Source: an uncultured Phascolarctobacterium sp.
GTDB taxonomy: Bacteria; Bacillota; Negativicutes; Acidaminococcales; Acidaminococcaceae
Reading direction: 5' to 3'
Assembly (NCBI GenBank): GCA_949287345.1
Contig: CASEGD010000003.1
Coordinates: 1 to 18,221 of the forward strand
DNA: 18,221 bases
In this document: positions 15,949 through 18,120 of the stretch, in pieces
Layout of the letters: each line of letters starts with the position of its first letter
Position numbering within the stretch: the stretch's first letter is position 1
The notes under the pieces: model-generated
The model's input: only the letters and a program-made list of their open reading frames with translations
Database searches by the model: none
Told to the model about the DNA's origin: nothing
Program-made: the position numbers and the translations under genes

Positions 15949-17229
15949 ATGAAACGCATCAAACTAATCTGCGTGCTGTGCCTTTTGCTTTGCAGCTTAA
16001 CGGTGCAGGCACTGGCAGCGCCCACGGCGGATGAAAAACGGCAAATTTTTAAGGACTACTATTTTACCGAGGCGGTAAACATCGCCGCGGGGCTTTGCAT
16101 TGGCATTTACGACCCGCAGCAGGCGCCGGAAATTGCCTACCTGCGTGATTACGGCTGGGAAATTGTGCCGGTTAAATTGCAGGACGGTAAGGTGGACAGC
16201 AGCTTTGTAGTTGCCAAAAGCCGCGATAAAATACACGACCTTGATTTTTACGTTGTCGGCTTCCGCGGCACAGCCAATAAAAAGGACTGGAAGATAAACC
16301 TTGAAACAGAACAGGTGCCATACGGCGGCACCAACTTGCAGGAGTTTATTGACTTTGCCAACAACACCAAAGGCGATGAGCACGTGCCGATGGTGCATAA
16401 GGGTTTTAACGAATATGTCAACACCGTTTTAAGCGCCACCATGCAGGACGGCAGCAGCACTAAAAAATTTATCGACGAAATTAAAACCAACCCCAAAGTA
16501 AGGGTGCTTTTAACAGGGCACAGCCTTGGCGGCGCAGTGGCAACGCTTGCGGCGGAACGGCTTGTCAGCATGGGCATTGAAAAATGGCGTGTGCCGGTAA
16601 TTACCTTCGGTGCGCCCGCAATCGGCAACAAAGCCTTTGCCGAAGCCTACGGCGATAAGATTTTGCTGTGGCGCATCACCAACACTGCCGACCCCATTCC
16701 GGGCAGCCTGCAAACCTTCTTCGGCGGCTACAAGCAGTTTGGCAAACAGTATAAATACAGCGTATCGCCAAGGCTGGAAGTAAAACAGCATGATATGGCG
16801 ATGTATTTTGACGTATCCGTACACAACTACTACGAAGCATTGCGCAAAGCACGCGAAGCAGGGCTGGTTGCCACAACGCCGATGCAGCAGCTTAACGGCA
16901 GAGAGCCTTTGGTTGCGGTGTGGATAGGGCACAGCCGCGCGCTGGAAAAACGCCCCTACCTGCCCGATATCCAGACCTTTTTGCTGACGGAATACCAGAA
17001 CATGCTGCCGCGCTACATTATAATGGATGACAACATCAATTTAAGCCGCGAAAACTTTTACCCCATGAGCTACTTCGTCCGCGAGGCGCAGGGCGTGGGC
17101 GCGACGGCGGGCTGGTTAACGTCATCAGCGTGTCCAAACTGGTTTCGCCAATGTCCGGCACAATGCACGCCGCTGTATACGCCGTTAAGGAAGGTCGCAC
17201 GCAGCTTAAAAACTGCCTGCCGTTTATAA
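15949..17229 (+). CDS. Secreted class 3 lipase-like protein, 3' end frameshifted
   Basis: A 426-residue reading frame starting with a signal peptide (hydrophobic residues about 6-20, cleavage likely after the ALA at 21-23). The alpha/beta-hydrolase core matches Lipase_3: FRGTANKKDWKIN supplies the oxyanion region, GHSLGG holds nucleophile Ser192, and NTADPIPGS holds Asp248. His292 in VHNYY is the best catalytic His; His281 is the alternative. Residues after about 300 form a second domain I do not recognise. The sequence degenerates after about residue 384, where a one-base deletion appears to shift the frame. The ribosome binding site (CAGGT) is weak. Substrate is unknown. Confidence 0.85.
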   Translation: MKRIKLICVLCLLLCSLTVQALAAPTADEKRQIFKDYYFTEAVNIAAGLCIGIYDPQQAPEIAYLRDYGWEIVPVKLQDGKVDSSFVVAKSRDKIHDLDFYVVGFRGTANKKDWKINLETEQVPYGGTNLQEFIDFANNTKGDEHVPMVHKGFNEYVNTVLSATMQDGSSTKKFIDEIKTNPKVRVLLTGHSLGGAVATLAAERLVSMGIEKWRVPVITFGAPAIGNKAFAEAYGDKILLWRITNTADPIPGSLQTFFGGYKQFGKQYKYSVSPRLEVKQHDMAMYFDVSVHNYYEALRKAREAGLVATTPMQQLNGREPLVAVWIGHSRALEKRPYLPDIQTFLLTEYQNMLPRYIIMDDNINLSRENFYPMSYFVREAQGVGATAGWLTSSACPNWFRQCPAQCTPLYTPLRKVARSLKTACRL

Positions 17230-17285
17230 AAACAAGCTACAACATCACTCCGCAGTGGATTAGATTGGGAGATGACGCAAATTGA
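17103..17285 (+). pseudogene. Displaced C-terminal end of the lipase reading frame
   Basis: From 17103 another frame of the same strand gives a protein-like sequence (DGGLVNVISVSKLVSPMSGT, later KTSYNITPQWIRLGDDAN) ending at TGA 17283-17285. It has no start signal of its own and reads as the natural continuation of the lipase after loss of one base near 17101-17104. The restored protein would have about 445 residues. Its stop overlaps the next gene's TTG start (TTGA), the arrangement expected of coupled genes. It could be a true mutation or a sequencing or assembly error. Confidence 0.75.
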
Positions 17286-17935: not shown

Positions 17936-17974
17936 AAAAAAGACGTAGTTAGGTATTGCTAACTACGTCTTTTT
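17936..17974 (+). terminator. Intrinsic terminator after the uracil-DNA glycosylase gene
   Basis: AGACGTAGTTAG (17941-17952) pairs perfectly with CTAACTACGTCT (17959-17970), loop GTATTG, preceded by A5 and followed by T4. The A and T tracts extend the stem, so it could act on both strands. The loop and 3' arm overlap the -35 of the next promoter. Confidence 0.93.
17948..17965 (+). promoter_or_regulatory. Dyad copy 1, GTTAG-N6-CTAAC
   Basis: GTTAG (17948-17952) and CTAAC (17959-17963) are separated by six bases and overlap the -35 TTGCTA. The element matches copy 2 at 14 of 18 positions. Because it also lies in the terminator stem, its operator role is uncertain. Confidence 0.4.
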
Positions 17975-17984
17975 ATGTTATACT
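17956..17984 (+). promoter_or_regulatory. Sigma-A promoter for the last gene
   Basis: TTGCTA (17956-17961), a 17-bp spacer and TATACT (17979-17984) with an extended TG (17976-17977). The predicted start is near 17991, giving a leader of about 130 nt. The -35 lies in the terminator hairpin of the preceding gene. Confidence 0.75.
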
Positions 17985-17990
17985 GCAAAT

Positions 17991-18120
17991 GTAAGTTAGA
18001 TAACGCTAACCAAGTATTCTAAAGAACCTTCTTCTTTTGATTACTGCTTAAATAACTGCGCTTTGACCAATGCCCCTCCTGAGGAATATTTGGTTAGCTG
18101 TCTTACTTTTAGGAGATGTT
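17991..18120 (+). promoter_or_regulatory. Long structured leader, candidate cis-regulatory RNA
   Basis: GCTAACCAAGTATTC (18005-18019) pairs with GAATATTTGGTTAGC (18084-18098) over 15 bp with one G-U. Outside it GTAAG (17991-17995) pairs with CTTAC (18102-18106). Inside, AAAGAA (18021-18026) can pair with TTCTTT (18032-18037). CCTCCT (18075-18080) mimics the 16S anti-Shine-Dalgarno and can pair with the AGGAG binding site (18111-18115). I do not recognise a known riboswitch core. Confidence 0.55.
17995..18012 (+). promoter_or_regulatory. Dyad copy 2, GTTAG-N6-CTAAC
   Basis: GTTAG (17995-17999) and CTAAC (18006-18010) repeat copy 1 with the same six-base gap, 47 bp downstream, just after the predicted transcription start. 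It may be a DNA operator or part of the RNA fold, since CTAAC is also in the long stem. Confidence 0.45.

Follow-up and report, generated by a model that had tools for sequence, protein, structure and literature searches.

The 3′ end of the window analysed here (the whole stretch of 18,221 nucleotides from an uncultured Phascolarctobacterium sp., a gut bacterium) probably holds the control region of an iron-starvation operon, composed of repressor sites, two of which would supply the arms of a conserved RNA hairpin. The operon would consist of the DUF3793, flavodoxin, ZIP transporter and desulfoferrodoxin genes and would be induced on iron starvation. When iron is present, a DtxR/IdeR-like repressor would bind operator O1, over the -35 hexamer, and operator O2, at the transcription start, and the operon would be off, as suggested by the position of the operators, the regulon and the co-occurrence of regulator and operator. 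Without iron, the transcript would be made and its 5′ end would fold into a stem, P1. The P1 arms would have grown out of the facing halves of O2 and of a third operator, O3, and the stem would then have been lengthened and maintained through compensatory changes. The fuller statement, put forward tentatively, gives a single sequence two readings: in DNA it would serve as tandem DtxR-type operators and in RNA as the arms of a selected stem-loop with a post-transcriptional action, the lineage having exchanged Fur for a repressor of the DtxR type at the DUF3793 gene. The features are collected in Table 1.

Table 1. Features at the 3′ end of the window
Feature	Position	Strand	Remarks
Terminator-like hairpin and T run after the uracil-DNA-glycosylase gene	17940..17974	+	O1 nested inside; by eye
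Operator O1, GTTAGGTATTGCTAAC	17948..17963	.	overlaps the -35 hexamer; one mismatch in L049
Promoter TTGCTA, 17 nt, TG-extended TATACT	17956..17984	+	scan; putative start near 17991
Operator O2, GTTAGATAACGCTAAC	17995..18010	.	just past the putative start; perfect in five other g1 genomes
P1 5′ arm, first part = O2 3′ half	18005..18019	+	
Local hairpin excluding the inner part of P1	18013..18045	+	folding only
P1 loop, pyrimidine runs ACCTTCTTCTTTT, CCCCTCCT	18020..18083	+	
P1 3′ arm, last part = 5′ half of O3	18084..18098	+	
Degenerate operator O3	18093..18106	.	GTTAGC half intact, CTTAC mis-spaced after 4 nt
AGGAG ribosome-binding site	18111..18115	+	not conserved: AGGTG in L015, TGGTG in ET69
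DUF3793 gene start, cut by the contig end	18121..18221	+	ATG at 18121

Genes, promoter and operators at the window end

The uracil-DNA-glycosylase gene, the terminator-like hairpin and the first codons of the DUF3793 gene follow one another at the window end, a layout common to six named loci (L011-L016), five of them labelled Phascolarctobacterium (one being P. faecium DSM 14760) and one Acidaminococcaceae; the order and family placement of further genomes was inferred from these labels. L012 carries an intact DUF3793 orthologue followed by flavodoxin, ZIP transporter and desulfoferrodoxin genes. The consensus scan for terminators listed none at the place of the hairpin, and in the alignment with L014, L015 and L016, inspected by eye, the letters of its stem outside O1 vary and the pairing is kept. 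Further upstream, a lipase-like gene (15949-17281, named by eye) shows an apparent reading-frame change near 17,100; the listed ORF has an unlikely tail and another frame seems to go on. A mobile element or repeat was rejected as the nature of the leader, which occurs once in its own genome apart from a self-match of the terminator palindrome. A leader peptide was also rejected, because none of the start codons listed within 17991-18120 had a convincing ribosome site by eye. The in-frame upstream ATG (18070 in the window) lies in an open frame in genera g1 and g13, TTG or ATG candidates are found in g18 and none in g9, and since this start varies among the four genera, an N-terminal extension of DUF3793 is not conserved.

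The promoter that the first-pass annotation had predicted, with a start near 17991, held up: the scan found TATACT ending at 17984 with TG before it, and the same geometry recurred in related leaders, where a -10-like hexamer lay 7-11 nt ahead of an operator in 24 out of 25 DUF3793 leaders of the family and TG in 23 out of 25 (under a loose criterion with the best match chosen). All 25 family DUF3793 genes, which come from 25 of 59 genomes and do not include the truncated gene of the window, carried a perfect operator upstream, two or three in most cases. The GTTAG/CTAAC half-site palindrome was likewise perfect in O1 and O2. The second half of O3 reads CTTGC in L015 and CTTTC in L014, and O3 is intact with N6 in L062. 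GTTAG-N6-CTAAC occurred only once more in the genome of the window, before a porin-like gene (by eye). This third palindrome (L042, 1101-1116) overlaps a promoter-like stretch, and the porin-like gene has an SLH-like start (by eye).

In ten relatives, 54 forward operator sites were counted, and the control, the pattern reversed, gave 9. In G031 the two counts were 15 and 0, and in G057, G058 and G011 the operator count was at most one above the control. We read 20 stretches around operator sites and scanned 10 proteins. Operators were found near genes for FeoA, FeoB, a TonB receptor, a periplasmic binding protein, SOD, a ferritin-like (Dps-like) protein, AhpC, ZIP and an ABC transporter, and at least six of the sampled stretches (L089, L095, L096, L097, L100 and L106) were devoid of an evident iron gene. 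Thus, judging from the 10 proteins scanned, the sites have the iron-related regulon of a DtxR/IdeR-regulated operator. Altogether, the GTTAG/CTAAC elements look like DNA operators. GTTAG (17995-17999) and CTAAC (18006-18010) had been described in the first-pass annotation as a local pairing that competes with the long stem; they do lie there, but the description missed their likeness to a DNA operator palindrome. As the elements look like operators, the competing pairing would be the O2 palindrome itself. Family leaders also show a repeated layout of operator, terminator-like hairpin with a U run, and operator, in some cases before iron genes.

Structure and conservation of the leader stem

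The 15-bp stem with one G-U pair and the outer pairing of GTAAG (17991-17995) with CTTAC (18102-18106), both noted at first reading, were found in the sequence. The single-sequence fold of 160 nt was no better than chance (z -1.4, 16 out of 200 shuffles as good). In the window the stem was not the minimum-energy fold, lying 0.3 kcal/mol above it with a computed P of 0.39, and the same applied to L047 (computed P 0.11). In addition, the first pairs of P1 are automatic, since a palindrome that occurs twice in an RNA will always pair with its copy. We therefore counted pairing past the 5-bp operator half, with two positions beyond it held fixed in the shuffles. The test covered 21 of the 25 family leaders, leaving aside L048 and L056, which have a single operator, and L052 and L053, which are almost identical to the window. 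Pairing extended over 6-12 positions in 7 leaders from four genera (g1, g13, g18 and g9), including 10 positions in the window (shuffle P 0.0004). The shuffle P values were 0.0004, 0.0004 and 0.0008 for g1, 0.056 for g13, 0.043 and 0.0014 for g18, and 0.001 for g9, where rows of the same genus are not independent and g13 alone is weak. The remaining 14 DUF3793 leaders tested extended by 0-3 positions, and 7 further pairs of neighbouring operators by 0-1; spacers of 17-18 nt limit the possible extension in L043, L045, L055 and control L101, and controls L099 (298 nt) and L105 (417 nt) are poor because their spacers reach over other genes.

The first positions past GTTAG/CTAAC may be part of the operator. 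Past the first three positions, the letters of the extension differ among g1, g13 and g18/g9. When the arms were aligned from the operator ends, 7 out of 15 pairs were changed on both sides (11 out of 500 shuffles reached that number) and the covariation was 0.627, vs a shuffled mean of 0.199 (reached by 0 out of 500) and 0.243 in the best slid register, values that depend on this anchoring and derive from four genera with 5 distinct arm pairs among them. Over the 7 rows, 8 out of 12 inner pairs were changed on both sides vs 1-6 in slid registers, and 71 out of 84 cells paired vs at most 42. Automatic alignment of whole cores misplaced the P1 arms and recovered 8 operator-derived pairs only, none of them changed on both sides. 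On the anchored arms, the compensatory changes are those expected of a structured cis-regulatory RNA. Stem extension and covariation across four genera thus support a real structured leader, despite the chance-level single-sequence fold. The search for stem covariation upstream of related DUF3793 genes, recommended with the first description, had in this way a positive outcome on the anchored arms.

Comparisons within the genus of the window showed how little the core of the leader changes. Relative to strain ET69 (L014), the 94-nt core presented 1 substitution, vs differences at 40 out of 87 and 24 out of 52 fourfold sites (46%) in the flanking genes, the gene of L012 having been used in place of the truncated window gene for the second count; the upstream 64 nt differed at 13 positions and the ribosome-site region (18099-18120) at 6 out of 22. 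Relative to L015, the core had 0 substitutions and one gap column, vs 19 out of 86 and 17 out of 71 fourfold sites, 18 out of 64 upstream positions and 4 out of 22 in the ribosome-site region. The 64-nt loop presented 1 substitution with respect to ET69 and 1 gap with respect to L015. Between genera the loop is not conserved, except for a pyrimidine content of 58-63% between the operator halves. In the genus of the window, the second half of O3 has been lost and the P1 arm is intact. Because compensatory changes accompanied both the lengthening and the retention of the stem, P1 would act as an RNA, and the hairpin looks selected as RNA and built on operator halves. The role favoured for it, that of a 5′-proximal hairpin with a stabilising effect on the message and a loop open to an RNA or protein acting in trans, is the weakest step and less likely than not.

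DtxR-type and Fur-type regulation of DUF3793 genes

A DtxR-domain protein was present in 17 out of 17 genomes of the order vs 1 out of 6 others first tested. Among 150 genomes of the class, the strict operator (GTTAGC-N4-GCTAAC) occurred in 33 out of 61 genomes with DtxR and in 7 out of 89 without it (P 3e-10); outside the family, the counts were 20 out of 33 and 7 out of 87 (P 7e-9), so that the gene and the operator co-occur. Outside the family, 8 out of 12 genomes had, among the matches listed, an operator at most 3 kb from the DtxR gene. In family members the repressor gene mostly does not adjoin an operator, since only L145 and L146 out of 18 DtxR loci, mostly from family members, hold one. 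In G116 (L146) the order was DUF3793, operators, DtxR, operators, two feoA-like genes, operator and a feoB-like gene, the feo genes being named by likeness. The DtxR-like protein has both DtxR domains, and of the proteins with solved structures IdeR and DtxR match its sequence best; as read from L136 it is short (123 aa), in which the candidate repressor differs from known DtxR/IdeR proteins. The DtxR profile found no match in 2 out of 30 family genomes (G039 and G041), and the strict operator was absent from G168 and G157 of the same order. The metal sensed could be manganese. Fur-family proteins were present in all 23 genomes tested, and for this reason the repressor could be a Fur-family protein.

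To score Fur sites, the 7-1-7 Fur box consensus was used. We examined 25 further DUF3793 leaders, the new ones among the 30 best-scoring loci retrieved, 24 of which came from outside the order. The operator was absent from all 24 (at least 3 mismatches), and 20 of them had a Fur-box match of at least 11 out of 14 before the same gene family. The best match in the 25 family leaders was 8-10 out of 14 vs about 9 in shuffles, that is, at shuffle level. The GTTAG operator was found in L115, which belongs to the same order but to a second family. An apparent regulator swap is thus suggested at the DUF3793 gene, from Fur-box-like sites (L107-L131) to the GTTAG operator (L043-L067 and L115).

Alternative readings and significance

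P1 might be a by-product of tandem palindromic operators, the leader acting purely as DNA through start-site repression, possibly together with a roadblock at O3. Operator halves do account for the first 5-8 pairs, and 14 other DUF3793 leaders with two operators have no extended stem; we nevertheless regard this reading as unlikely, given the compensatory changes past the operator in 4 genera, the nearly unchanged 94-nt core and a P1 arm retained where the other half of O3 is lost. Transcription attenuation, with O3-bound repressor stalling polymerase and the leader releasing it, would fit the terminator-like hairpins found between two operators in 8 of the 22 spacers tested, which were those measuring 40-150 nt among 28. 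Those of L050, L058, L059, L064, L090, L098 and L104 were matched by 0 to 12 out of 200 shuffles, and that of L062 was weak (30 out of 200). Such a hairpin is, however, absent between O2 and O3 in the window type and in L054, L049, L044, L046 and L047, and O3 is degenerate in the window, which makes this mechanism improbable here. The chance appears slim that processing of the leader yields a regulatory RNA responsive to iron, with C/U-rich loop segments that would pair with the ribosome sites of other messages. FsrA and RyhB are the functional analogues of such an RNA, and the leader shares with them a putatively iron-regulated promoter and pyrimidine runs in the loop of a stem-loop; unlike them, it sits in cis and is known here as a leader sequence only. 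A 13-mer complementary to one loop segment (at most 1 mismatch) found the leader itself in all 6 g1 genomes and, with one mismatch, 11 places elsewhere, vs 4 for the reversed control, a result counted against this reading.

The first-pass annotation had read the leader as a translational switch, in which CCTCCT (18075-18080) could pair with the AGGAG ribosome-binding site. Both motifs are in place, CCTCCT is unchanged within the genus, and the window is nearly bistable (stem P 0.39), one of its two folds within 0.3 kcal/mol burying the ribosome site. As in anti-Shine-Dalgarno riboswitches and RNA thermometers, a structured and strongly conserved 5′ leader has competing pairings; unlike them, this leader lacks a conserved ribosome-site partner, a cross-genus loop core and an Rfam match at gathering score. 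The pairing of the loop with the ribosome site scored -11.2 in the window type (P 0.10), -7.1 in L054 from the ET69 genome (P 0.54) and -7.0 in L049 from the L015 genome (P 0.92), and the bistability was lost in these relatives (stem P 0.89 and 0.75, respectively). In L054 and L049 the stem thus dominates and this pairing does not rise above shuffles, so that the anti-Shine-Dalgarno reading is not supported. The test for a cis anti-Shine-Dalgarno in 17 leaders gave no consistent signal (lowest P 0.047 in L050 and 0.05 in L063), and no conserved expression platform over the ribosome site, as a translational riboswitch would have, was found. The initial remark that the core belongs to no known riboswitch class agreed with the Rfam covariance-model search, which gave 0 matches at gathering score; at E up to 10 there were 11 matches, all under gathering, 10 over the upstream terminator hairpin and one in the coding start, and none covered the stem-loop. 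The best, STnc40 (E 0.0048, minus strand), reached 5 nt into the P1 5′ arm. With a varying ribosome-site partner, pairing at shuffle level, bistability lost in relatives and a loop that is unlike between genera, a switch toggled by a ligand or condition is very improbable, and sequestration of the ribosome site by the leader is not supported.

The preferred reading, operators with an RNA hairpin built on two of them, bears comparison with known regulators. The corynebacterial DtxR consensus is TTAGGTTAG(G/C)CTAACCTAA, a 19-bp operator with 1 bp between halves, according to a Corynebacterium glutamicum study (PMC1382209). The present system resembles DtxR/IdeR systems in its GTTAG and CTAAC half-sites, its iron-related targets and its DtxR-domain protein, and differs in having 6 bp between halves instead of 1 bp, so that the 19-bp spacing does not apply. 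The operator system is, on sequence grounds, a variant of DtxR/IdeR regulation. The literature searched contained no paper on this leader and none combining Acidaminococcus with DtxR; DUF3793 turned up in a single paper, which by its title deals with a fungus, and titles and abstract beginnings of the Phascolarctobacterium riboswitch literature held nothing on this leader. To our knowledge, a leader RNA with repressor sites as its arms is unusual. If true, it would illustrate a route by which the binding sites of a repressor give rise to a structured leader RNA. It would also provide a concrete case in which a DtxR-type repressor seems to have taken over a gene from Fur, and would place the uncharacterised family DUF3793 in the iron-starvation response.
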